Below are positions 39,524 through 55,812 of a stretch of 64,000 bases of DNA, piece by piece. The notes under the pieces are model-generated. The model was given only the letters and a program-made list of their open reading frames with translations. It had not been told where the DNA came from and searched no databases. A program made the position numbers and the translations under genes. The first letter of the stretch is position 1, and the number at the start of each line of letters is the position of its first letter. This DNA is from Heterostelium album PN500 (lineage: Eukaryota > Evosea > Eumycetozoa > Acytosteliales > Acytosteliaceae): contig NW_008805070.1 of the NCBI RefSeq assembly GCF_000004825.1, positions 1,922,001 through 1,986,000 of the forward strand. Direction: 5' to 3'.

Positions 39524-40070
39524 TTATTGAGTGACAGCCAGATGGGAGTCTTCATCTTTTACATTCGGTAATACCAGAATAATTTGTCGTAGGCATACAA
39601 AATTATCTGTATATCCCTTTCTGAATTCTTCTGATGTAGTAATACTACCATCTTTCTTTAATTCTTCAAGAACCTGAATATATTTATAGTTAAAAGTATT
39701 AACAATAATCATTCAAAACAACAGTTTATGATATGTATAGTTGTCAATAGTGTACCTGCTTTCCAGTGGTATTCTTTGTTAACCAATCTTTCATTAAATG
39801 TGTCTGTTGATCAATCGTTACTTTGTTATGTTTTTTTGGTGATGCTATTACATTAACTGAAGTTGTTATTAAATTTAAAACTTTACTTTTATTACCAGAC
39901 CTCTCTGATAATTTACTATAGTCCTTATAACGATTACTCTTGACTGGTTTAGTGTTTGGATCACTAACTGATTTTATTGAATTCAACACTCCTTGTGTAT
40001 AATTATTGAAAGAGGGAGCCAATGATCGACTATTATTACTCTTATTTTGTGTAGTTAATCTGCTTGCCAT
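39524..40070 (-). CDS. Small two-exon gene, unknown function
   Basis: Exons 40070-39756 and 39673-39524 join in phase (CAG|GTACAC donor, TTCAG|GTT acceptor) to 154 residues. The first 60 residues are Ser/Asn/Lys-rich and basic. The C-terminal half looks folded: QQTHLMKDWLTKNTTGKQ, then VLEELKKDGSITTSEEFRKG and NFVCLRQIILVLPNVKDED. There is no signal peptide or membrane segment. I do not recognise the family. Exon 2 starts with VLEELKKD; an orphan exon 450 bp upstream starts similarly (VLDLLKKD) just after a splice acceptor, which suggests a decayed duplicate. Confidence 0.55.
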
Positions 40071-40524
40071 TTTAAAATAAAACTTGATTAAAATAACGAA
40101 TCAAATATCAAATATAAATAATTAAAAAGAATCAATCACAACCTAAATTTTTTCCTTTTTTTTTAAAAAAAAGCAAAACACAAAAAAGCACAGCCACATG
40201 ATAATAAGTATTAGTTTGATGCACCTCTTTAACAATATTTCTGTTAATGATTAAATCTATAGATTGTTTTATTTTTTCTTTATTATTAAATTTTAAATAC
40301 ATATATTGTGTTTTGTTTTTTAAATAACCACATGACCAACAGTCTACCTGTATGTAGAATAATACCAAAGAGGTTACGAGGGTCATAATTCGCGTTCATG
40401 AATTGATTGAACATTATATTTCCTCGATATATTTTCTTTGACAATCGAAACAATGTTGAATTGCTCTAAGCATTATTAGTTAGCTAAAATAAAACCATTG
40501 GTTTTCACCATATCTTGACAATAA

Positions 40525-40629
40525 TTAAAAAGGTTCACGTTTCTCAGCTGCTCTTCTCCTATAGAATTCTCTGAATGATGATGGTCTTTTTTGTATACAA
40601 CAACAATCTTTCTTTAACAAATCTAATAC
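40525..40629 (-). pseudogene. Orphan terminal exon, possible duplicate relic
   Basis: A good acceptor (TTTATAG|GTATTAG) opens 34 codons and a stop: VLDLLKKDCCCIQKRPSS, then FREFYRRRAAEKREPF. The composition is strongly protein-like, yet no upstream exon is visible on the minus strand, because plus-strand Ubc12-like sequence lies there. Its start resembles exon 2 of the neighbouring 39524 gene. It could also be a real last exon with a distant first exon. Confidence 0.4.
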
Positions 40630-40721
40630 CTATAAATAAAGAATTTAACCAGTCAGTTTATTAAAGTTTTATTTTATTTTATTTTTTCACTTTTAAACGA
40701 CATCTTTGATTTGATAAACAA

Positions 40722-40850
40722 ACAAAAATATGTTTCGTTTAAAGTCGATGAAATGGAAGTACCATTGGGTTGCAAAGTTACATTCAAAGACACCAACGAC
40801 ATTCTCAATTTCCAATTAGACATTACGGTATCTTTTATGAAATTAAACAA
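40722..40850 (+). pseudogene. Ubc12-like (NEDD8-conjugating E2) relic
   Basis: The stretch reads DEMEVPLGCKVTFKDTNDIL then NFQLDIT. This is the start of the E2 fold of Ubc12/UBE2M (pattern: RIQKDINELNLP..C.ISF.DPDDLLNFKL.I). The expected R-L-K just before it is present in another frame (ATG TTT CGT TTA AAG), so a one-base frameshift separates them. The catalytic Cys exon and the rest of the E2 are absent from the next kilobase. It is therefore a truncated, frameshifted copy; the functional gene must be elsewhere. Confidence 0.6.
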
Positions 40851-41621
40851 AGATTAAAATAAATCTATACCTTTATAAATATTACATCCACTATCCTTTT
40901 TAGCCAATCTATGATTACATGTGCTTGTTTATATGTTTATTTTACTTTTTAGTTGAGCAATAGAACTAATTCTGTTATTGAACTCGAACTTTGTAATTGT
41001 TTCTGTTATTGAAATGCATGCTAATCCGTCATTGTCCAGTATTTAACCTTTATTTACTAATTTACTACATCTCGTATATTAATATCTTGGTGATAAATAT
41101 TCAAATAATAATTAAATTATAACTATTTTTTAAAAGAATGGATTAAGATGTCTGTTTTCTTTTGTTTTGATTGCAAAAAAAAACCAAACCAAAAAATAAT
41201 TAAAAAAAAATATTATTTTCAAATCAACATTTTTTTTGAAAAACTTAGTTTTCATATGATCCATAACACAAAGTTTGGAAGAAATATAAAAATGTCCCGA
41301 TTTAGAATGTTTGCTAATATATTGGTATGATCATAGATATTAGAAAAGATTCTTTTTTTTTTCTTGATCCTCAATTCTTTTTAAAAAACTTTTGAAACTA
41401 AGTTTTCAACCTTTCTTTTTAATAAGGAGAGAATTTGCCTCATTACAACTAAACTATGCTTTTTTGTTTTGATCAAAACCAAATTTTTTCATTTTAATTT
41501 TTTTACTTTACAACCTTCAAATTTAACAACAAATACAATCTTCAAATTTATCAACAAATATAATCTTCAAATTTATATAATAGTTATTATTTCTTATATT
41601 TTTAAAATATTATATCTATTC

Positions 41622-41856
41622 TTTTTTTTTATTCTTTCTCTATTCTTTATATTCTTTATCTATTTATCTATTATTTATCTTTTTATATATTGTTTAATAT
41701 TTATCTATTCTTATTTATCTATTTATATTTATCTATTCTTTATCTATTTATATTTATCTATTCTTTTTTTTTTATTCTTTCTCTATTCTTTATATTCTTT
41801 ATCTATTTATCTATTATTTATCTTTTTATATATTGTTTAATATTTATCTATTCTTT
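41622..41856. repeat. Tandem duplication of a T-rich block
   Basis: A block of about 90 bases (from TTTTTTTTATTCTTTCTC to AATATTTATCTATTCTT) occurs at about 41623-41712 and again at about 41764-41855. The copies appear identical apart from the length of the leading T run. They are separated by TATTTATC-type repeats. The second copy ends 13 bases before the ATG of the next gene, so it forms its 5' flank. Confidence 0.85.
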
Positions 41857-41868
41857 AATTATTTATCT

Positions 41869-44800
41869 ATGTCACACATTACTATAGGTCCTTTTAAGGT
41901 CAAAGATGTCCTAAAGGATGAATTCTTTACAACTATTTCTTCTAATCTATCAGAAGATCAAAGAAGATCTTTAGTACAAATTAATGATTTTCTTCATAAA
42001 TTTATAATTAATAATCAAGATAATTTCACCAAAAATTTTCAAATTGTTAATAATATTATTGTTAAAAATGAAGATGTTTTGACAAATTTAGAAAAAACAA
42101 CTACCCACCTCACTATCTCATATAATATAATAGCGTATATTTATAGGCGAATAATCGGTAGCGAAGTTCTAGAATCCAATCATATGGGAGAAGTTTGGAA
42201 ATTGCTTCAATTTCAACCTATAAATATTCATGAGATAACTAATATAATTTCTGAAGAAGATACAAAGTATGTATAAAAAGTTTGTTTTATTTAAAAAATA
42301 ATTCTCTGTTTATTTATATTTATTTGTAATAGAAAAAAGATTTTAGAATTATTTTTATCTTTCAAAGATGAATTCGATATAAAATCGAAATATTTTGATG
42401 AAGTACCTAAACAAGTGGCAACAAACTTGTATAATTTTCTCTACACCCAGCTCCAGTCTCATTTAAGAAACCTTACGAAAGTTATTAACACTTCTATTCA
42501 AAAGAATTTAATAAATCTTGAGATCAATGATAGTATTGACTCAAAGATTCATTTTTTAGATTTTATAATAAACAACAATCTTGTAAGTATCAATTTTTTT
42601 TTAATTTACAATTTTTTTTAGTTTTAATCAAAATTCCTAATTTTTTTAAATAGTTTCCCATCTTATCGGACCACCAAGTAAAGAATCTAGTAGATAAATA
42701 TAAAATCGATACAACAATCAAACTAGAGGAACGGTTGATCACACTTTTAGCCAATCACAAAAATGGCAAAGTTTCTATTGATTTTAGTGACTTTAAATTT
42801 AAAGGTAAGTTTTAAGTATATAAAAATTAAGAGTATTTAATTTTAATTTATTAATATTAATTTTCTTTTCTAAAAATTTAAATAGAATTAAAAAAATTAT
42901 TTTATTTTACACATTATGATCACCAAAATATTAAAGAACTTGGTTCGAAAGATTTCAATGGATACAAGTACTATAGATTGGGACTTGGTGGTCTATTCAA
43001 CAAGATAAAATATACTCTGAAATACCTGAATCCTCTCAAAGCAGTAGAGGCCGATCTTACTGACGCACTCTCTTTACATATATTTTTTATTAAATTTTTT
43101 AATGGTAATATTTTTTTAATAAATATTAAGTTGAATTTTTATTAATTTCTTTTTTTATAGGACTAGATGATCCGAGCGATGTTTTCATCAGATTATCGAA
43201 TTGGGGATTTGATTTTCCAAAATTACATCCCAAAATGAATCCTATAGAAGTTACATTCAATGAAGCTTCTATTGTCAAGATTGCACAATCTATACTTGGG
43301 GAAACCTATATGGATTATTCAAATGTTAAGCAATTTACCGACTTGGTCGAATTTGTGGAAAGATTAAAAATGCAAGAAGAAACTCCACACACAGTGGGTG
43401 AATATCTTTTATGTAAGAACGATAATCACAAGAATGTTGGTTTACCAGATAACATTTTCAAAGACTATATGCGTAAACATGGAAATCATTATTATTGTGC
43501 GAGTTGCTCTTCATATTATTTCAAGGAATACAGAAGAAAGGATTCGAAATCAATAGAAGTAAAACCAGCGAAAAAGAAAAAAATAACTAAATCAATTATT
43601 AGAATTGTAAAGTTTTTTTCTGAAACTGTAGAGAGATCAGATCTCAATTTATCATCAAATGTAATAGATCTAATACATCAACTAATTGGATTAATCTCAG
43701 AGTTTTTACATCATTTAAATTCTTCTTTGCCTAGGCCTATCTCATCACCTTCCAAAGCCATCAATGATCTCAAATCTAGACTGAAATCATTAATCAATCA
43801 ATATGGTCAAGATCAAAAGTCTACCGGTACCCTTAAGGAGGATTCCAAGATATCAAATCCTAATCCAAATTCAAAATCGAAATCAAAATCAAAATCCAAA
43901 TCAAAATCAAAATCAAAATCAAAATCAACCAGTTCAAACTCTCAAACTTCTGTAATTTTAGATCAATCATCAACATCAACAACAAACCCTACAACAGAAA
44001 CAACAACAAACTCTACAACAGAAACAACAAATGAGGAATCTACTGAAAATAATCAATTTTATTCGGTAGTCGATCAATTTAGAAATATTCAAACTTCCAC
44101 TGCATCACCAATATCAAAAACCTACACCGACCCTAACTATGTTATTGATACTGAGAAGTATCCAAGGTTTGTTGGTTCACCATTGAATACCTTCTCAATG
44201 ACCCCTCAAGTCTCTTCACCCACGTCTTCTATTATCACTCATCACCCTCTGGATCCAAATGACATGTCACTCAATAAGGATAGAAAACAGTGTGCTACCG
44301 CCAATAGAATTCAAACATTATCAATGTTTAATGGAATTAGAAATACAAATTGGTTAGATTTACACCCATTCGTAGCTAACAACATGAGTGAATTCCCAAA
44401 GGAACACAAACTGATAATGCTCGATAGTCTTCAATCAATTCTATCCGATGGCCCCGGATTATCTTTGTTATGTGGATCTGTAAATTTACAATTGCTTCAT
44501 ACTCTCATCAAAGATGGTGTTGTAGTAGTAGTTTCAAAACAATCATTTCAATCTTCATTCTCATTGAAATTAAAGATATTAGATAAGTCGGTAACAAAAA
44601 CTATAACAGTTCATTTAACACGTCATCCTTGTTTTTACTCTAAGGAATTTATCTCAGCATTCTATTATTTTGCAAATGATATTAGAGTTCAAAATAACAA
44701 GAACAATCACCACAACAACAATAGCAATCTCGATAACAATAGCAATAGCAATAGCAATATCGATATCGATATCGATAGCAATAGCAGTATCGATAGCAAT

Positions 44801-47175
44801 AGCAATAGCAATAACAATGGCAATAGCAGTATCGATAATAATAGCAATATCGATATCGATATCGATATCGATAGCAATAGCAATAGCAATATCGATAACA
44901 ATAACAATAACAATAACAATAATAATAACAATAATAATTATTATTCTATTATTCAAAATGATATTTTTAATAATCAACAATCTTCAAACTCCTCTTCCTC
45001 TAATAATAATAATGAACCATGTTTTCCTAATCGTCCTTATCTCTTTAAAATTAAAGAGTATATTGACAGCAAACCACCAAAAACGAAAACAACAAAACAA
45101 AAGAAAAAAAGAAAGTCAAGACATCTCAACCATTTGTATAATAAACAACAACAACAACAACAACAACAACCAGACACATCAACAACAACAACATCTAATT
45201 CTTCCAATAATAATAACAAGTTATCGATTAAAGAAAATATCGATATTAGTTTTTTTTATCATATCAAACGTTCAATCAGCGTTCTACTTATCCCACAAGT
45301 AAATAGGTATGTTTATAAAAAGGTATAAGTAAATTTAAAATTCTTTACTAATTGTTTTTTTTAGTTTTAATCAATTTTCTATCCACTATAATAAGACAGC
45401 TCTCGGTAAATTGTTAAATAATGAGAAGATCAACGTGTCAGATATAGTAAACCCCAAATTCAATTTAACAACATATGAGATGGTTGGTATTAGATCAAAT
45501 GGTGATTCTTGTTATATTGTATATGCCAAGAAAAAAAAGAAACCAACAGCCAACAAACCAACAGCAACCTCTACAATAACAACAACAACAACAACCACAA
45601 CCAACGAAACAACAACAGCTACAACCAACAATACAACAACTGAAACCAACGAACCAACAACTACTAAAACCAAAAACGAAATAGTTGTTACAAGTAAGTT
45701 TTTTTTTTTAATTTAAATTAAAAAAAGTTAAAATCATTAAAAATTTTTATTCACACTTTTCTAAAAACTTGTAGAAGAAATCAAATTATATGATAAAGTG
45801 AAGAAAGATCCCCAATGGAAAGAACTTTCAATCATTGCGGTTGATCCTGGTCGTAATCACAACACTTATTTATTCTATCCTGGTGGTCTTAGTGATGATA
45901 ATGGACTAATTCCCAATACTCCACAACAATTGGCACAAATGGAAAAGAAATTTAGTCTTGACATGATCAGTGGCACTCATTATTACAACTCGCAATCAGG
46001 CAGGCGTAAAAGTATTAAAAAAAAAAAGAGAGGTAAACAAGTTGATGAATGGGAATCAAAAATCCCAAGTCTTTATGGTATGTAATAAAAAAATATAAAA
46101 TAATAAATCGTTATGCCATCAATTATTAACAAAATTTTTCATTTTTAGGTGGTTTTGAATGTAACATATTATCAATAGATATTTATGAAAAGAGAAGGAA
46201 ATATCTATTTGATAGACCAATTCATTTTGTTACAGATTCAAAAGAGATTGATCTATTGAATAAAGAGTCGGTAGATATTCAAAATCATATTGACCATTTG
46301 ATATTGGAAATTGGCAAGCACGAACCAGATGATCCTGTTTATCAAAATTTAGAGAATCAACTTTTATCTTTTGAAGCTCATGGTACTGTTTATGCGAAAA
46401 ATAGCAGTGGATCATTTAGGAAACCCGAGATTCAAGTAAACCCCAATAATACCGAAATCGATGGTATTATTGATCGCTTAGGAGAAACTACAAAGAATCT
46501 TCATGCTCTTATCGAAAAACGCCAGTCAATTCCAAGTCCTTTATATTCTGCAGCAATTGAAGCTCATAAATCCTATCGATTGGTTGATTCTTCATTTGAT
46601 AAAAAGAAGAAACACAGTCAACTCTTAAAAGCCGACCTACTTTTGTATCGTGCAATTGAGACCACGTTACTTTCGGAAGAGTCCAAGCTGTCAAATGTTT
46701 CAACTATCACTCCGCTCAATGATATAGTTATGAATGATCAATCTAGTTCAATCCCTGCTCCAACTTCAACACAATCATCTTTGCCCCGACGAAAACGACG
46801 CTCCAAAAAACGTGCCGATGAACGACATGCCAAACATCGTGCCGCTGAACAACTCTCCAAATCTCTCTCCAACGATACAGTTATGACTGATCTACCTACT
46901 TCATCTACTACTACTACTACTACTACTACTACTAATACTACTACTACTAAGCCTCCACGTCGACCCCCTAAATCATCCTCCAAAGTTGGTCTACCTAGTT
47001 CCAAGACTGCTCCAACCTCAAAAAAACCATCTACATCCCGTGCCGGTAAAAGCTCCAAAGATACTGACGTAGTCATGACAGACCTACCTCCCGTAAAGAA
47101 TCTACCATTGAAACCACTTCAATATATTTACAAACCTTTAGATCCAAAAGTATTGAATCTCCCTGAAGTTGTTCC
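41869..47175 (+). CDS. 5' part of a very large unknown gene with a RuvC-I-like motif, interrupted by an LTR element
   Basis: Eight exons (41869-42266, 42333-42582, 42654-42804, 42886-43104, 43161-45306, 45365-45693, 45775-46077, 46149-47175) join in phase to about 1607 codons before the retrotransposon. The first 400 residues are helical without a known fold. A Cys/His-bearing stretch (GEYLLCKNDNHKNVGLPD, later YYCASCSSYYFKEYRR) lies at the start of exon 5. Long SK, Asn/Ser and Ile/Asp repeats follow. In exon 7 there is ELSIIAVDPGRNHNTYLFYP and then KFSLDMISGTHYYNSQSGRR. The DPG motif plus a following F-S-L..YY block resembles RuvC-I of TnpB/Fanzor nucleases. The later zinc ribbon and final Asp motif of that family are not visible. 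The last exon has basic, Ser/Thr-rich linkers with two VMTDLP repeats. The role is unknown; a mobile-element-related nuclease is a hypothesis. Confidence 0.6.
44731..44937 (+). repeat. Hexanucleotide repeats coding NS and ID dipeptides
   Basis: Alternating runs of AATAGC and ATCGAT units within exon 5 encode Asn-Ser and Ile-Asp dipeptide repeats, ending in an AAC/AAT run. Period-six coding repeats are much rarer here than the usual period-three ones. Confidence 0.85.
47171..47175. repeat. Target-site duplication, left copy (GTTCC)
   Basis: GTTCC abuts the TG of the left LTR and recurs directly after the CA of the right LTR at 53118-53122. A 5-bp duplication is typical of LTR-element integrases. 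Confidence 0.9.
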
Positions 47176-47387
47176 TGTTGGAATCGTAGTTCCAAGATAT
47201 CAGTCAACCGACTACTGCTAACCGATCAATGAACACAATGTATTTAAGCGCAAACAAGAACTCAATAAACATTATTAATTTCATATATTTCACAACCATA
47301 TTTAAACACATAAACTATTTGTTATTATAACATTATTATATCATTACACGATGTCGTTATTATCACGGTTTAACGACGTCTCCAACA
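47176..47387 (+). repeat. 5' LTR
   Basis: 212 bp, TG..CA ends, identical by eye to the 3' copy. It contains a TATTTAAG box near 47240 that may act as promoter. The first ATG of the gag frame lies inside it at 47351. Confidence 0.93.
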
Positions 47388-48712
47388 TGGTGGACTCAGA
47401 AGTATCAATTCCTTTTACGCCATATTTTAAACGGACCCCTACTAAGCCCACCACCCCTGCCGGTTTAACCAAACGAACAGTGCCTCGCAATCACGCTAGT
47501 ACTATGATGATAGTTAACGATTTTCTTTGCAGGAATGACCCTTTAAGATCTACTCATAAGAGCTTTTGCGATTTCTTTGTCAAAGTGTTATCCATGTATT
47601 CCATCTCCATAAAGCAAGCTTACGATTGGACCACTGCTACTTTTGCGGCCGACCCTAATTCGTCAAGTTTCAACACGTGGCTGAACTCGAATAAGGTAAT
47701 GTTTGGCTCGATCCAGAAGTTTAAATTAGGTGACGACATCTACTCATGGATAGATGCGATCTATAATCTGGTTCCAGAGGAGCACCGTTTCAACTTCACA
47801 GAGGTATGGCTGACACCAGACGCCTTTAGCTTCTTCTTTGCCAACAGAATTCCTTACAAGGATTTCGCCGAGTTGTCCGCTGCTCTTGTAAAAGTTTTCG
47901 GTTGTAAGATTGATGCTGACTCACTGTATGCCAAGTTTTCACACCAAGTAGTATACGATCCAAAATGGTCAATCACCAGCTTCAACATGTCTTTCAACCG
48001 CCTTGCCAGAATTATGAATATGGGTGAAGCCATCAACGTCCGCATGTATAAAGCTGCATTTATCAACCTGGGCGAGATCCGTACCCGTTTGAGTGAATTT
48101 ACCGATCTCTCACAATGCCTTCGCAAAGCTGAGGAGTTGTTCGCATTCCATTATTCAGCTAAGAACGTGAACCAATCCCATCTCGAGAAACTTGACGTTG
48201 CTGATCCATGTGGTTGGATTGACAAGCATTTCCCTGGTTTTGCTAACAAGTCGGTTGGTCAAACCACACATCACGTTTCAAAGCCTAGCTTTAAGTGTTT
48301 CAATTGTGGTCTCCCTGGTCACAAGTCTTTTGAGTGCCGCAAGCCGCGTGGCCCATATCACCGCGATAAACGTGATAGATTCAGACGTTCAGATCGTCGT
48401 TCAGATAGTCGCTCTGACAGACCCAAACTCTCAGATCACCCCAGTTCTGGTGATAAAAACCCTTACTTAAATAAAATGGTCGGCTCTGTCGATACGTCTT
48501 CTCTACCGTACGTTCCTATTTTCGTCAATGGAATCACCAAAGACGCTAAGCTTGACACTGGTTCTGAGATTAATCTGCTTTCTAGAACCGTTTGGAATAA
48601 TCTTAAGTTGACCACACCCCTCACTCCTGCATGCATTAATATATGTGGTGTCAATGGTACCCACACGTTCAGATGGTATGGTCTCATTACTTGTCGGTTT
48701 CACCACCGTTAA
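47351..48712 (+). CDS. Retrotransposon gag reading frame with protease motif at its end
   Basis: A 453-codon frame belonging to the LTR element. A capsid-like helical region is followed by a CCHC zinc knuckle (CFNCGLPGHKSFEC), an Arg/Asp/Ser-rich nucleic-acid-binding stretch, and an aspartic-protease-like DTGSE near the end. The first ATG sits in the LTR and a second in-frame ATG straddles the LTR edge. The pol frame overlaps its end by about 70 bp, an arrangement common in this family. Confidence 0.85.
   Translation: MSLLSRFNDVSNMVDSEVSIPFTPYFKRTPTKPTTPAGLTKRTVPRNHASTMMIVNDFLCRNDPLRSTHKSFCDFFVKVLSMYSISIKQAYDWTTATFAADPNSSSFNTWLNSNKVMFGSIQKFKLGDDIYSWIDAIYNLVPEEHRFNFTEVWLTPDAFSFFFANRIPYKDFAELSAALVKVFGCKIDADSLYAKFSHQVVYDPKWSITSFNMSFNRLARIMNMGEAINVRMYKAAFINLGEIRTRLSEFTDLSQCLRKAEELFAFHYSAKNVNQSHLEKLDVADPCGWIDKHFPGFANKSVGQTTHHVSKPSFKCFNCGLPGHKSFECRKPRGPYHRDKRDRFRRSDRRSDSRSDRPKLSDHPSSGDKNPYLNKMVGSVDTSSLPYVPIFVNGITKDAKLDTGSEINLLSRTVWNNLKLTTPLTPACINICGVNGTHTFRWYGLITCRFHHR
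47388..47402 (+). other. Probable primer-binding site
   Basis: TGGTGGACTCAGAAG follows the LTR directly. A TGG start complementary to the CCA end of a tRNA is the usual layout. The tRNA was not identified. Confidence 0.55.
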
Positions 48713-51700
48713 AGGTCACCGTGTCCATATTCCAATGGATTTTATCATTGCGGATGTGGACCCTAAAGTATGTATCATCGGCGTAGATTCACTAGCCAAA
48801 CTAGATTTTAGAATTGTCGATAATACACTCACTATTTCTGATAATTTAGTAAAAACATTCAGAAGAGGTGCCACCAATCATAGCGCGCTTCGTAACAACA
48901 TCGATTTTCATGTGTCTGGACGAAAAAGGAAATCTACTTTGAAATGTTTATTTGCATCAACGCAAAAATGTGACATTTTGCACGAAATTACAAAAATTTG
49001 TCACCAAATCCACGTCACCAAGGAAAAATTAAAAACTGATTTTGAAAATTTCCATTTTGGGAATTTCAATAAATTTAGGTACTCTCCTATGACCATGGCC
49101 ACTCTTAATCCAAGTAATCCTACTAACTCTGGCATCGAGCATATTAATACCGCTGATATTGCTGATAGTTACTTGGTATGGATTGACCCTGATGACGTGA
49201 AGACTCCACTGCCGACAGCTACTACTTTTACCACGAACGTCACCGCTGTTTCGGAGGATGGTCTTGATGGTGTTCGAGATGACATCATTAAAATGTTGAA
49301 AAGTGATTTCCAAGATGTGGTATCTCCAATGACTTCACCACCGCCATTCCGTGAGGATGTGGATATGAAGATCAACTTAAACGCACCTGTCCAGAAACAG
49401 AGGATGTTCCCTGTTCCGCAATCACTGTTAGAGGAACTACACAACCAAATCAAGGACTTGCTACATAAAGGTTTCATCGTTCCATCTAACGCTGAATACG
49501 GCGCTCCAGTATTGTTCGTTAAGAAGAAAACTGGTAACTGGCGTATGTGTGTCGACTACCGCCAACTCAATAAGTCTACCGTCAAGAACTCATATCCGCT
49601 TCCACGTATCAACGAACTGCTTGATCGTACCAAATCTGCTCACTGGCTAAGCAAGTTGGACTTGCTACATGGTTACCACCAACTTCGCATGAACCTACAA
49701 GACGCTGACAAGACCACTTTTCGTTGTCCATTTGGTTCATTCAAATACACGGTTATACCATTCGGATTATCAAATGCACCAGCAGTCTTCCAGTCTTTCA
49801 TGGATTCTGTATTTAAATTGGAAGTATTTCAGAAATTATTATTAGTATACTTAGACGATTTATTAATTATGACCAATAATTCTTCTATTACTGAACACAT
49901 CGATGGTATCAAGCATGTATTCACAATACTAAGAAAGAATAACTTACATGTCAACTTATCAAAATGCACATTCTTGGTTCGATCTGTCGACTACCTTGGT
50001 CACATGGTTGGTAATGGCAAAATAGACCCACTGCAGGACAAGATCGATTCTATCATCGCTTGGAAAGAGCCGAACAACAAAGACGAGCTACGTAGTTTCC
50101 TCGGTCTTGTTAACTACTACAATAGATTCATTCCGAGGTTAGCCACTGTCCAAGCACCACTCACTTTCCTACTTAGAAAGTTCGCTCCATTCCACTGGTC
50201 TGATGATTGCCAACTTGCATTCGATACTATCAAATCAGCAATTAAAGAGAAACCATCGTTGTTCCCACCAAATTACGATCTGCCTTTTATATTTGAATGC
50301 GACGCTTCCGATGTCGGTACCGGATATCGATTGTTTCAATTGGTAGACGGTAAAGAGAACGTAATCTGCTACGGTTCCAGGAAATTGAAAGATTCGGAAA
50401 CACGTTATTCAACACTGGAAAAGGAACTATTAGCCATCGTTACTGCGTTGAAAGCCAACTACTATCACATCTTCGGCAGAGATATCGAGATTCGTACTGA
50501 CCATAAGAACATCACCTACATCAACGAGGCCAACAAGATCGGTATCAACCAAACTATCAATCGCTGGATCGCACACATTAATCTTTACCAACCAAAGATC
50601 AAATTCATCAAAGGAAAGGACAATACGATTGCCGATGGTTTGTCCAGGTACACATTCAATGTATCCGTATCACTTAGTCATCCAACGATCGCCAACGATA
50701 TCATCGACGGTTACCGCATAGAGGACAACTCCAATCTTAGTAACGGAATCACTGATTACACGACAATCAACGGTCTCCGATACACCCACGACGGTAAGAT
50801 TATAGTGCCTAGAGTCATGTCAATAGTCAATAATTTACTATATCAAGCCCACGATTCTGAATTCGGTTGTCATAGGTCGGCCTCCAAAACTCTCCATTCT
50901 ATATCCGAACTATACGTATGGCCGAACATGGCGGCAGACACCAAGAAGTACTGTGATGACTGTATCGTCTGTCGACGTGCCAGCGACCATGCACGAAAAA
51001 GAATTGGTCACCTGATTCCATTGCCCATTCCAGTCAAATGCTTCCAACGTATTAACATCGACTTCATACCAAATCTACCAGTCGAGGAGTACATGGGTAG
51101 GAAGGTTGACGCTATAATGGTCGTTGTCGATGCCTTATCTAAAATGACCAGACTGATTCCTTTAGGTTCGGACTATACCAGTAAAGAGGTGATTGATCTG
51201 TTTCATAAAGAGATCTTTAAACTCCATGGTATCCCTATTGAAATTGTTTCTGATAACGATTCTAAATTGACCTCCAAGTTATTCAAGCAATTGACGAAAG
51301 CGTACGGTATTCACCACTCCACATCGGCCGTATCCAATCAACAAGCCAACGGACAAGCTGAAAGAATCATTCGTGCAGTCAAGAATGCGACTAGAAAGCT
51401 TATGGTTGATGACCGTCTCCACAATACTACTGGTTCCTGGTCTAAGCACATCGATACTGTCGAGTTTTCATTGAATTCAACTGTTCATTCAACTACCGAG
51501 TACACTCCGTTCAAGATCTATTTGGGACACAATCCGTTAACACCACTCAACCTCGTCAAAGAATCGGATGCTCTGGTCGACGTCACAGATAAGCAAATCA
51601 TCGAATCTATTAAGGAAAGGAAAGCAATCATTAAGTTAGTCAAACGAAACATCTGTGTTGGAAATCAAGAAATGAGATTTACATGGAACAAAGGTAAAAA

Positions 51701-52802
51701 AGAAAACCAAATCAAGGTAGGTGATTACGTTTTCTACAATAATAATAGAGATGGTAAGAAAAAGAAATTGGATGTGAGGTATGAAGGACCGCGAAAAGTA
51801 GTGGAAGTCGATAATTATAATAATATATTCATAGATGTGATTGGAAAAGATGGAATAAGCACAAAGAAGAAGAAATTTAATTCGAAACACATAATGTTAT
51901 ACGATCCAAAGATGAATGAAAATTTAATTAATGATGTCGACGACTTATTAGTCGAAAACGGTGCTACGGCGGAGACCGATCGGGGTAGTACCGTTGGCGA
52001 TAGTTCAGACGACTATGACGATAGTCCGAGGCCTATACGCCGTCACACACGGAGGGGGCTGAAAAATGTCGAAAGTAGAGTAGACATAAATGTCGAACGT
52101 AGTGTTGACAGGGATGACATGGAGGATAATAAATTAAATGACGATAATGATAGCGACTACGATAATAATAATAATAACAATAACAACTACAACAACAATA
52201 ACGATGACATGGATATGAATGACGATGATAGCGATAACTTACTTATTAATAATAATAATAACTCTAATAACTCTAATAACTCTAATAACTCTAATAACTC
52301 TAATAATAATAATAATAATAATTTAAATATCGATTATTTTAAATTTATTTCAAATGATTCAAAATTTCATCAAAACATCACTGCACGTGGAACTTTATCA
52401 AATAATTTATCAAAATCAATTTTGCGAAATGTCGAAAATAATTTTAACGAACTACGTAACGAAGTGGACAAATTCGATCATAATTTAAAATGCAATCTTA
52501 ATAAATCGGAAATAATAGCGACAAAGAACATTATATCATACATCAACAGCGACGACTTCATACCAAACACTCCCTCTATTATTATTGCAGATGATGTCAA
52601 GGTTCTAGCATACACCAAATGGAGAAAGGATATTGTTGCCATCCTCGCCAAGCGCAAGTTCACTCTTGGTACTTCCAAATTAGCTCGTGTCGAATATTTG
52701 GTTAAGGTTGGAAGAGCTCTCGCTTGGGTACCGTTACCTGGTAATACTCTGGCGACTAAGTTTAGCTCTGCTCATTCAGTTCCAGATTCTACAGACGGAT
52801 GA
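48645..52802 (+). CDS. Retrotransposon pol reading frame (RT, RNase H, integrase)
   Basis: A frame of about 1385 codons. Reverse transcriptase has KKKTGNWRMCVDYRQLNKST and YLDDLLIM. RNase H starts at FECDASDVGTGY and includes the TDHKN block. The integrase has an HHCC zinc finger (H..H, CDDCIVC) and the DDE core with IVSDNDSKLTSKLF. An SH3/chromodomain-like tail (VRYEGPRKVVEV) precedes a long Asp/Asn-rich C-terminus. RT before integrase marks Ty3/gypsy. It is a virus-like element gene, not a host gene. Confidence 0.93.
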   Translation: MVSMVPTRSDGMVSLLVGFTTVKGHRVHIPMDFIIADVDPKVCIIGVDSLAKLDFRIVDNTLTISDNLVKTFRRGATNHSALRNNIDFHVSGRKRKSTLKCLFASTQKCDILHEITKICHQIHVTKEKLKTDFENFHFGNFNKFRYSPMTMATLNPSNPTNSGIEHINTADIADSYLVWIDPDDVKTPLPTATTFTTNVTAVSEDGLDGVRDDIIKMLKSDFQDVVSPMTSPPPFREDVDMKINLNAPVQKQRMFPVPQSLLEELHNQIKDLLHKGFIVPSNAEYGAPVLFVKKKTGNWRMCVDYRQLNKSTVKNSYPLPRINELLDRTKSAHWLSKLDLLHGYHQLRMNLQDADKTTFRCPFGSFKYTVIPFGLSNAPAVFQSFMDSVFKLEVFQKLLLVYLDDLLIMTNNSSITEHIDGIKHVFTILRKNNLHVNLSKCTFLVRSVDYLGHMVGNGKIDPLQDKIDSIIAWKEPNNKDELRSFLGLVNYYNRFIPRLATVQAPLTFLLRKFAPFHWSDDCQLAFDTIKSAIKEKPSLFPPNYDLPFIFECDASDVGTGYRLFQLVDGKENVICYGSRKLKDSETRYSTLEKELLAIVTALKANYYHIFGRDIEIRTDHKNITYINEANKIGINQTINRWIAHINLYQPKIKFIKGKDNTIADGLSRYTFNVSVSLSHPTIANDIIDGYRIEDNSNLSNGITDYTTINGLRYTHDGKIIVPRVMSIVNNLLYQAHDSEFGCHRSASKTLHSISELYVWPNMAADTKKYCDDCIVCRRASDHARKRIGHLIPLPIPVKCFQRINIDFIPNLPVEEYMGRKVDAIMVVVDALSKMTRLIPLGSDYTSKEVIDLFHKEIFKLHGIPIEIVSDNDSKLTSKLFKQLTKAYGIHHSTSAVSNQQANGQAERIIRAVKNATRKLMVDDRLHNTTGSWSKHIDTVEFSLNSTVHSTTEYTPFKIYLGHNPLTPLNLVKESDALVDVTDKQIIESIKERKAIIKLVKRNICVGNQEMRFTWNKGKKENQIKVGDYVFYNNNRDGKKKKLDVRYEGPRKVVEVDNYNNIFIDVIGKDGISTKKKKFNSKHIMLYDPKMNENLINDVDDLLVENGATAETDRGSTVGDSSDDYDDSPRPIRRHTRRGLKNVESRVDINVERSVDRDDMEDNKLNDDNDSDYDNNNNNNNNYNNNNDDMDMNDDDSDNLLINNNNNSNNSNNSNNSNNSNNNNNNNLNIDYFKFISNDSKFHQNITARGTLSNNLSKSILRNVENNFNELRNEVDKFDHNLKCNLNKSEIIATKNIISYINSDDFIPNTPSIIIADDVKVLAYTKWRKDIVAILAKRKFTLGTSKLARVEYLVKVGRALAWVPLPGNTLATKFSSAHSVPDSTDG

Positions 52803-52890
52803 GTCGGCACCCGTCTCTCGCGTAAGTCCTGATAAGGTTTTCTTATGCAAAGCCGCGTATAAGTTTTTAATCCTGTCAGGCTGCTGCCTC

Positions 52891-52905
52891 GAAGAAGAAG
52901 GGCAG
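52891..52905 (+). other. Polypurine tract
   Basis: GAAGAAGAAGGGCAG abuts the 3' LTR; it is the expected plus-strand priming site. Confidence 0.75.
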
Positions 52906-53117
52906 TGTTGGAATCGTAGTTCCAAGATATCAGTCAACCGACTACTGCTAACCGATCAATGAACACAATGTATTTAAGCGCAAACAAGAACTCAATAAAC
53001 ATTATTAATTTCATATATTTCACAACCATATTTAAACACATAAACTATTTGTTATTATAACATTATTATATCATTACACGATGTCGTTATTATCACGGTT
53101 TAACGACGTCTCCAACA
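52906..53117 (+). repeat. 3' LTR
   Basis: 212 bp, identical by eye to the 5' LTR. It is followed by the second GTTCC at 53118-53122. Confidence 0.93.
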
Positions 53118-53122
53118 GTTCC

Positions 53123-53693
53123 AGAGAACTATACCAAACCAGAAGTCACTATCACTCATAAACTAAGATTCAAAGGGTCCGATACAAAAAGACACCGAGA
53201 TCTTTTATATTTGACAAAGATGGCAATTGGTTCTGAAATAACAAAAGAGAATGTGGAATCTTTCAAAAAACGATTCAATAGTTTGGTTGAGCTTGGAATG
53301 GACTTTGATTTCAATGTAGTAAAGACTTTCTCTGAGGATTTTAATCGAATTCAGCTCCAATCCACAGAAATTGATCAATTACGCGGGAAATTAGCAAAAC
53401 ATAATCTTGTTTTCAAAGTTCCTCAAGGTTTAAATGATCCACCAACTAAACGATCTGTCATATCAGCGACACAAAGATATGGTACCAATTTAATTCAACA
53501 AGCATTAAATATATTGGAGTACGTCAAACTATCAAACTCACTTTTGTTGAAATGCAAAGAAGAATTGAAAGTTGCTCTCATGCCTAGCGTTGAACTCTCT
53601 GGCCTGTGCTCTGAAATCCTAGTTATTTTGAATTCCAAGGATTTCCAAACTAATTGGTTTCATCGAATAGGTTATATTCGCTATTTGACTTGA
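53123..53693 (+). CDS. 3' part of the interrupted large unknown gene
   Basis: On the far side of the retrotransposon and its target duplication, the host reading frame resumes in the same phase and runs about 190 codons to a TGA. It reads ENYTKPEVTITHKLRFKGSD, then LTKMAIGSEITKENVESFKK, and further helical sequence to WFHRIGYIRYLT. There is no CxxC zinc ribbon and no recognised domain. In this allele it is cut off from the 5' part by the element, so it is unlikely to be made as part of that protein. Base and codon use match the upstream exons, not the retrotransposon. Confidence 0.6.
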
Positions 53694-54921
53694 GTAAATA
53701 TTAGATTATTTATGTTAATATTTGTTATTAAATATATACTTCAAGTGCAAGAAATAAAAAGATATAAAAAAAATTAAATTAATTTTGTTGTTTAATACTC
53801 TAGATTTTTTTTTTTTTTTTTTTGGTGATAAAATTTTAAAAAAATGTTGATAAAATTAAACCATACGATTTTAATGGTATTTAAATATCCATTTGAGACA
53901 ATGAGAATTTATTTATATTAAATATTTAACTTTGTTTTTAAGAATAAAAAAATTAATAAAAATGTTAACATTTGTGAAACATTTTATATTATTTTTGAAA
54001 ATTAATAAAAACTTATTTTTATTTTATAAAAAAATTTTTCAATTTAAAAATCCCACCCATTATTTTTAAAGTTCAACACTCTGGATTTCAAAATCAAAGT
54101 TACCTGAAGAGAAATATTGGGTGGGATCTTGGGATTGACTGTGTAGTTTACATACTTTATTTAGATTAAAACCTTTGAATTTACTTTTAATATTCAATTA
54201 TAAAAGGAAATTGTTGATATGAATTGACTTTATCAAAAATAACACCGTGAAAAAACAAAAATTCGATCTTTAATAATATAAAAGAAACTAAAAATAAATT
54301 GTCTTCATATTTTCAAAGTGTATCAAAACTGTGGACCAACTATGTTATTTTTTAAATCTCAATTTTCAAAATTATTATTATATATCATTTGATTCATTGG
54401 TCATAGTAGATATCGGTATTTGGTAAAGCGATTAAAAATTCATGTAAATAATTATTTATATTAAAAATTGATATTAACTTAACTTTCGGGTTTCTCTGTG
54501 TAAATTTATAAAGAATTAAGTTAATTTTTATTTATATTCATTTTACCGACTTCCTTAAACAAAACTTATTTATATTGTCTTTTGTGATTATTTCAGTAAA
54601 TCATCTTTCAACATGTAAATTAATAATTACATTAATATCACTTTAGTGATATTTAAATATATTATATATTAATAGTTGTATTTTAAATATTTTTTAAAAA
54701 TGGGTGATTTTTTGATCTTTCAAAGAGATTGAAAACACCTCCTGTTGTTCACTAAAACAGACCATCATTTTTAGTAGTTGATACTATATTCCTAGAAATT
54801 AAAAACCAATAGATCGAGAAACACAAAAATTTACTTATTCAGGTATAATACTCTGTAGATTAAATTTATTTTAATTTATTAACTAATATTTAACCTCAAG
54901 AATCAAATTTTTATAACTACC
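53694..54921. other. AT-rich spacer
   Basis: 3' flank of the large gene. It has long A/T runs and no gene. A block around 54040-54140 is less AT-rich (CCCACCCATTATT, GGGTGGGATCTTGGGATTG), but I cannot name it. Confidence 0.4.
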
Positions 54922-55278
54922 AATAAAGGTAAATATAAGGCTAATGGTTTTAAATATCAAGTTATAGTCAATCTAAATGGAAGTTTGGTAAAACTCGATG
55001 GTCCTTACTACGGTCCACGACCTAACTATAGCAAGACAAACCAACTTGCCCAATTTATTAGGTGTAGAACAGATAATAGGTGATAAAGCCTATATAGGTG
55101 ATGGTAAGTTTTAATTCCTATTAAAAAAACTTTGAGGAGTCAATACAGAAGAAGAGAAACTATTTAAAAGTAGATAGTCACTATTCGCTTGGACTTTGAA
55201 AACCTGTTCCCAAGAGTAAGAAATTTTTCAATATTGGATAGACCATTTCGATCTGATGTTGTTATGTTATTTATTTAA
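54922..55278 (+). pseudogene. Relic of a DDE transposase (IS5/Harbinger-like, DDE_Tnp_4 type)
   Basis: The relic reads KYKANGFKYQVIVNLNGSLV then KLDGPYYGPR. After a frameshift comes HDLTIARQTNLPNLLGVEQI with IGDKAYIGD. These match the conserved core of DDE_4 transposases (KYQVVVD.G.I...GP..GS.HDLTI...S.LP.LL...E.I.ADKGYIGD). After a decayed gap, RVRNFSILDRPFRSDVVMLF fits the C-terminal end of the same family. I see at least one frameshift and several stops. No terminal inverted repeats were found. It is a dead DNA-transposon copy. Confidence 0.7.
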
Positions 55279-55389
55279 CATATTAATAATAATAATAGGG
55301 ATAACTAAAAATAAAAATATTGTTTTTTAATTCATTTCATTTTTTAAAAATAAATCTTTTTTTTTTTTTTTTTTTTGATTTTCTCTATT

Positions 55390-55812
55390 TCAATAAATAA
55401 ACCAATATTTACTCATGTCAATTATTTTCTTTGGTTGTGAACGTTGTTGTTTTTGTTGTTGTCTATTAAGGTTTTCATTCAATAATACGGACGATTGATC
55501 AATTGTTAAAATTGATGATTGATTTTTAAATTCATTCCAATCTTTTGCAACTATAACTTTTCTATGCTGAGATTCATCTATGCTCTGATTTCCACTATTT
55601 ACATATAAAGTATAGTGATATACAAATTCTTGAAATGTACATTCATCTTTCATTTGATGACAATCATATAGTTTCGTAATATTATTTTCCAAAGTTTCCA
55701 AGGAATTTGAACTTATAGGAATAAAATATCTGTGGATAGAAAAAAATATCTATTAATATTTATTCAATTTAAGATATAGAACCAATCTTTTTTAATACTC
55801 TTTAACTTTCAT
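55390..55812 (-). CDS. Small two-exon gene, unknown function
   Basis: A 14-nt first exon (55812-55799, MKVKE start) joins a 340-nt second exon (55729-55390) in phase to 117 residues. The protein starts MKVKEYFIPISSNSLETLEN, then has TKLYDCHQMKDECTFQEFVY and VIVAKDWNEFKNQS. A short Gln run and KKIIDMSKYWFIY end it. The open frame extends to the CACAG acceptor without an ATG, so an upstream exon is needed, and this tiny one fits best. There is no signal peptide or membrane segment. I do not recognise the family. Confidence 0.5.

Follow-up and report, generated by a model that had tools for sequence, protein, structure and literature searches.

Why a long terminal repeat (LTR) retrotransposon should lie inside a coding exon with no tRNA gene nearby is the question raised by a window of 64 kb (C9:1922001-1986000) from Heterostelium album PN500, a name which we take to denote the same species as Polysphondylium pallidum. 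The genome searched comprised 32.9 Mb in 39 contigs, and contigs and loci are given below by C and L numbers. An initial annotation had described the element as a fresh Ty3/gypsy insertion in the exon of a host gene and had regarded such a position as unusual. It is very probable that a copy of the family Pp_DGLT-A.3 was inserted into an exon of a repeated TnpB/Fanzor-like gene, in one of its copies and after that copy had separated from its sister on C8, and that the insertion was tolerated through redundancy of the target.

The retrotransposon measures 5,942 bp from LTR to LTR (47176-53117). As first described, its two LTRs were identical (212/212 bases) and GTTCC was present once on each side of the element, and neither property failed on re-reading. 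A 5-bp target duplication is also characteristic of yeast Ty3. Joining the flanks with one GTTCC removed gave a stop-to-stop frame of 538 amino acids (aa) spanning the site, in agreement with the claim that the host frame is in phase on either side. Near-identical copies of the interrupted exon lacking the element were located at C17:533002-534612 and C8:206565-208188. Both read ...GAAGTTGTTCCAGAGAAC... at the site with a single GTTCC and both were open across the insertion point. These paralogous empty sites are a direct test of the insertion, within one genome and not between strains. The target protein was 97-99% identical to C17 and 93-99% identical to C8, the latter in pieces, while a further copy on C11 spans 46153-46683 only and does not include the insertion site. 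The integrase would have inserted the element while producing the 5-bp GTTCC duplication.

The relative age of the insertion was assessed from an alignment of 1,966 nucleotides flanking the site, of which 1,403 were to the left, including one intron, and 563 to the right. Relative to the window copy there were 5 substitutions and 3 gaps in C8, and 17 substitutions and 2 gaps in C17. With the C8 site empty and precise excision not known for LTR elements, the insertion postdates the divergence of the window copy from that on C8, unless gene conversion has intervened. Two points tell against this part of the argument. Gene conversion could account for the likeness of the window and C8 copies, and the C8 frame is broken upstream of the site while the C17 tail loses its frame towards the end, so that the two copies serve as empty sites and not as proven working genes. 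Fresh is the softest word of the original description: a recent insertion was supported, while LTR identity alone proved weak as a measure of age. A difference of 0/212 only bounds divergence at approximately 1.4% (95% upper bound), which makes LTR dating of little use here, and the LTR pairs of three other two-LTR copies differed at 0/213, 1/213 and 0/204 positions. LTR pairs with next to no difference are the rule in this family, and short LTRs make poor clocks.

The assignment to Ty3/gypsy made in the initial annotation was upheld. Pfam matched a CCHC knuckle, reverse transcriptase, RNase H and integrase in the element proteins, and the order protease, reverse transcriptase, RNase H and integrase between the LTRs, together with a CCHC gag, is that of Ty3/gypsy elements (Metaviridae), with a protease match that was weak, below the cut-off and divided between two frames. 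The matches in the second frame were RVT_1 (E 3.8e-35), RT_RNaseH_2 (E 2.9e-28), Integrase_H2C2 (E 4e-14) and rve (E 2.5e-10). The gag start lies at base 176 of the 5' LTR, and no chromodomain was found by Pfam in the integrase tail. The two gag-pol frames of the window copy overlap at 48612-48712, inside the protease. Since another complete copy, 96.8% identical to the window copy, carries a single frame of 1,829 aa, a programmed frameshift was disfavoured as the cause. The split frame is most simply read as a small lesion of the window copy, or as a sequencing error that the assembly carries.

An LTR search of the genome returned 27 matches, counted as 20 loci including the window element. 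Table 1 of Spaller et al. 2016 (PMC5006619) lists Pp_DGLT-A.3 with a total length of 5,942 bp and a 212-bp LTR, and gives 11 copies including 2 full-length copies with intact frames and 3 solo LTRs; our larger number of loci probably reflects the counting of old solo LTRs and fragments. Both published lengths equal those of the window element. Pp_DGLT-A integrase extensions are stated in the same paper to be 264-333 aa with no detectable chromodomain, and the tail of the window copy, at 338 aa, is close to this range and slightly shorter if counted past the GPR motif. The entry for tRNA specificity of Pp_DGLT-A.3 is 'no' (PMC5006619, Table 1), which agrees with the lack of a tRNA preference over the window copy and the other loci. 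Two points stand against this identity: the comparison with the published element is one of lengths, and intact-frame copies are what the paper counts (PMC5006619), in contrast to the gag-pol frame of the window copy, which is split in the protease. According to the same paper, DGLT-A of D. discoideum resembles the window element in its Ty3/gypsy type, CCHC knuckle and lack of a chromodomain, although it integrates 13-33 bp upstream of tRNA genes and the window family does not. Yeast Ty3 shares the Ty3/gypsy organisation (PMC5006619), whereas the window element is not placed at tRNA genes. The features of the locus are collected in Table 1.

Table 1. Coordinates, within the 64-kb window, of the retrotransposon, the gene it interrupts and the second insert.
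Feature	Position	Strand	Basis or comment
Stretch common to window and C17, retrotransposon excluded	39610..53685	+	Blocks 98.3%, 93.2%, 97.2%, 99.8%
Upstream exon of target gene with VDPGR motif (RuvC-I-like)	45775..46077	+	Exon ends inferred
Interrupted exon, left part	46149..47175	+	Start inferred from AG acceptor
Target-site duplication GTTCC, left	47171..47175	.	Read from sequence; single GTTCC in C17 and C8 empty sites
5' LTR, 212 bp, TGTTGG...CCAACA	47176..47387	+	
gag frame: CCHC knuckle and first protease part; ATG within 5' LTR	47351..48712	+	PF00098 E 0.00026; PF13650 E 0.016 (below cut-off)
Putative primer binding site, begins TGG directly 3' of 5' LTR	47388..47405	+	TGG signature as in PMC5006619
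Second frame (open from 48612): protease remainder, reverse transcriptase, RNase H, integrase, long integrase tail	48612..52802	+	
Integrase C-terminal extension, 338 residues	51786..52802	+	Counted from G of GPR motif
Purine-rich tract 5' of 3' LTR	52888..52905	+	
3' LTR, 212 bp, same sequence as 5' LTR	52906..53117	+	
Target-site duplication GTTCC, right	53118..53122	.	
Interrupted exon, right part	53123..53685	+	Similarity to C17 and C8 stops at 53685
Second insert in interrupted exon: 1,735-bp DNA transposon, inverted ends TGACTTGAGTAAATATT / AATATTTACTCATGTCA	53686..55420	.	

No tRNA gene was detected in the 64-kb window by ARAGORN or by Rfam at the gathering threshold, which confirmed that none lies near the insertion and ruled out a tRNA-associated insertion of the window element. 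The missing tRNA gene is expected because Pp_DGLT-A.3 is listed as not tRNA-specific (PMC5006619, Table 1), and the view that a coding-exon insertion away from tRNA genes is unusual was not sustained. Mapping the other LTR copies relative to tRNA genes, as the initial annotation had proposed, likewise revealed no tRNA preference: ARAGORN and Rfam agreed on tRNA genes at 3/19 other loci (flanks of approximately 2 kb), with LTR-to-tRNA distances of 201, 745 and 632 bp.

Of the three LTRs concerned, those on C16 and C13 disrupt open reading frames (ORFs) which we call TRE-like on the basis of their tRNA proximity and a motif resemblance. The C16 ORF is part of a family with 133 matches (E<=0.01), and the family member in which the C13 site falls is 36% identical and contains stops; no supporting Pfam match was obtained for the TRE-like ORFs. 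Among the first 60 of the 133 matches, 8 (7/46 loci) were less than 1 kb from a tRNA gene compared with a random expectation of approximately 0.4%, using a partial list of 63 tRNA genes (63 of 1,916 candidates scored). No tRNA-gene targeting is seen in the family, and the tRNA proximity of some copies arises in part from nesting in TRE-type elements that are themselves near tRNA genes. The third tRNA-near LTR, on C3, is without an explanation by TRE nesting.

The nature of the target was examined through its copies. An ordinary single-copy host gene was ruled out by the near-identical copies elsewhere in the genome, so that of the original description the coding exon and the dispensable target were retained, while the host gene gave way to a multi-copy, transposon-like one. 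At E<=1 the C-terminal part of the gene matched the genome 46 times at exon level, counted as approximately 21 loci, which were scattered and often partial. The C17 and C8 copies run on past the truncation seen in the window, and their further exons hold a CxxC...CxxC cluster, DEYNTS and NRDFNACLNM; the truncated copy in the window has neither DEYNTS nor NRDxNA. The D, [TS][TS] and RD residues of Fanzor1/TnpB could be read by eye in VDPG, DEYNTS and NRDxNA. Four relatives (29-40% identity) retained E-x-N-T-S and a K-G pair, and NRD was kept in all three that reach it. A PDB profile search with the C-terminal part gave two chains at E<=10 (E 0.6 and 0.78), both from LaTranC, which we take to be a TnpB-related nuclease.

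Several results weigh against a relationship with TnpB and Fanzor. In Bao and Jurka 2013 (PMC3627910), the Fanzor1/TnpB motif is defined with a C4 zinc finger that separates TS from RD, whereas here CxxC...CxxC was upstream of DEYNTS and none was present between TS and RD. The spacing of 125-275 residues between D and TS was not observed either, as most of the 723-aa C17 frame intervenes if VDPG provides the D. No significant TnpB-type profile match for the target gene was obtained in Pfam, NCBIfam or PDB searches. Cas12f1-like_TNB was matched by 3/5 family members at E<=1, with a best E of 0.027 that is far below the cut-off, and unrelated models scored equally well or better in single members (Pfam DUF6607, 0.013; NCBIfam, 0.0016 and 0.0019). 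A phmmer search of the joined target protein against PDB had no match, and a genome-wide search with PF07282 gave 5 places, none above the cut-off and none in the target family. When two other loci of Fanzor-type appearance in the genome were compared by profile with the target family, the probability was 74.5, over no more than 32 columns. Searching the PDB with another such locus gave no significant match. It was also observed that CxxC...CxxC precedes E-x-N-T-S in the Fanzor-like family of C17, C8 and their relatives (L044-L047, L061-L066).

The table of Bao and Jurka 2013 (PMC3627910) includes 7 Fanzor1 elements in P. pallidum strain PN500, and the paper also describes Sola2-Fanzor chimeras. 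The target gene resembles the Fanzor1 elements in its VDPG, E-x-x-TS-type and NRDxNA motifs and in being multi-copy, and differs from them in a zinc cluster that precedes the TS motif and in a much longer spacing. Because of the zinc-finger placement, the spacing and the absence of a significant TnpB-type match, the gene is best described from its motifs as Fanzor-like and was not assigned to Fanzor1. RNA-guided DNA cleavage activity has been described for Fanzor proteins (PMC10432273).

Three other explanations retain some probability. That the site was picked by a sequence preference of the family for GC-rich, GGTGG-like targets, over random landing, is a possibility we hold doubtful. Duplications of 5 bp were read by eye at 14/20 LTR loci including the window, with the LTR end shifted by 1-2 bases at two. 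The 13 of these used for composition (window and L009-L022) had 55% G+C compared with 30% in random window 5-mers (p ~5e-5), and GGTGG in either orientation occurred in 3/13 compared with 0/20,000 random draws. Two of the GGTGG duplications fall at the same conserved Gly-Gly position, in two TRE-like ORFs that differ from each other. However, the sample is small and post hoc, the control is one 64-kb window, and the GTTCC of the window element is not GGTGG. A preference for exons was rejected: a crossing frame of at least 150 aa was present at 4/15 sites compared with 51% of 2,000 random window positions, a control that the genes of the window and the retrotransposon itself push upwards. Of the 20 loci, L015, L023, L024, L025 and L026 were left out of that comparison as one-sided or cut, and L012 and L027 were joined with no duplication removed.

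Somewhat less probable, and in our view unlikely, is that the target is an ordinary, non-mobile host gene that was recently duplicated in a segmental duplication and is dispensable by redundancy. Its near-identical copies, with approximately 8 kb common to the window and C17, are compatible with duplication, and the terminal inverted repeats expected of a carrier transposon were not found in one search of the 5' part of the window against the C17 tail, which gave A/T-rich or very short matches only. Duplication sits poorly, however, with the unequal extents that the copies share with the window (C17 from 39610, C8 from 44667, and C11 over the short stretch given above), with the occurrence of the C-terminal part at approximately 20 scattered, often partial places, and with motifs that resemble those of mobile-element nucleases. 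An exon in one copy of a repeated TnpB/Fanzor-like gene remains the favoured target, and the insertion would have been tolerated because that target is itself redundant and of mobile-element type.

A wider reading, in which the DGLT-A.3 lineage lost tRNA targeting and prefers GC-rich sites inside other mobile elements as a safe haven, appears improbable. If it were true, the nearness of DGLT-A.3 to tRNA genes would now be indirect, by way of targets such as the Fanzor-like gene and the conserved Gly-Gly position that the two TRE-type ORFs have in common.

The interrupted exon contains a second insert, the DNA transposon listed in Table 1, which is flanked by ATT on both sides (53683-53685 and 55421-55423) and has a weak match to DDE_Tnp_4 (E 0.15). 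It is 99% identical to a copy at C37:138269, which has AAT on both sides, and 93% identical to a copy at C9:355754, where an exact 3-bp duplication was not seen. At C8:215527 the same transposon end is directly followed by the gene tail that is missing from the window, while on its right flank in the window the transposon has a different, minus-strand frame (55390-55749) that is related to other places in the genome. The junction at 55420 would be explained equally by transposon copies having recombined with each other and by their having misled the assembly into a join. That the retrotransposon or its right flank was itself wrongly joined through repeats, as this passage into unrelated sequence, the C8:215527 arrangement and a run of N in the C8 stretch might suggest, is very improbable, as the window is free of N, the 5-bp duplication is perfect with exact empty sites elsewhere, and the doubtful junction lies 2.3 kb away from the insertion.

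Two further observations concern other copies of the family. A 1,556-bp insert on C16 (L011:2270-3825; C16:475769-477324), bounded by the inverted ends CAGCAAAAATC... and flanked by a TA duplication, sits in a DGLT-A.3 LTR that itself lies in a TRE-like ORF, and is presumably Tc1/mariner-like. Tandem repeats of approximately 66 bp adjoin two of the two-LTR copies (L009:1-641 and L017:7531-8801) and occur also at about C11:130290-131010.

No report of this nested insertion was found among the matches listed for literature on Fanzor with Dictyostelium or Polysphondylium or among those listed by a wider search, and the words nested and gypsy are absent from PMC3627910. The insertion is real, and is ordinary nesting of one transposable element in another by an already described retrotransposon family; the literature on Pp_DGLT-A.3 and the copy number of the target remove the surprise. 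What remains of interest is a possible targeting of GC-rich sites inside transposable elements and the divergent Fanzor-like family. With empty sites available in paralogues, both the insertion and its relative age can be tested with no need of further strains, and the target suggests that dictyostelids have a divergent TnpB/Fanzor-like family which escapes the standard profile libraries. Landing in redundant mobile DNA may be how a retrotransposon that does not target tRNA genes keeps its place in a compact genome.

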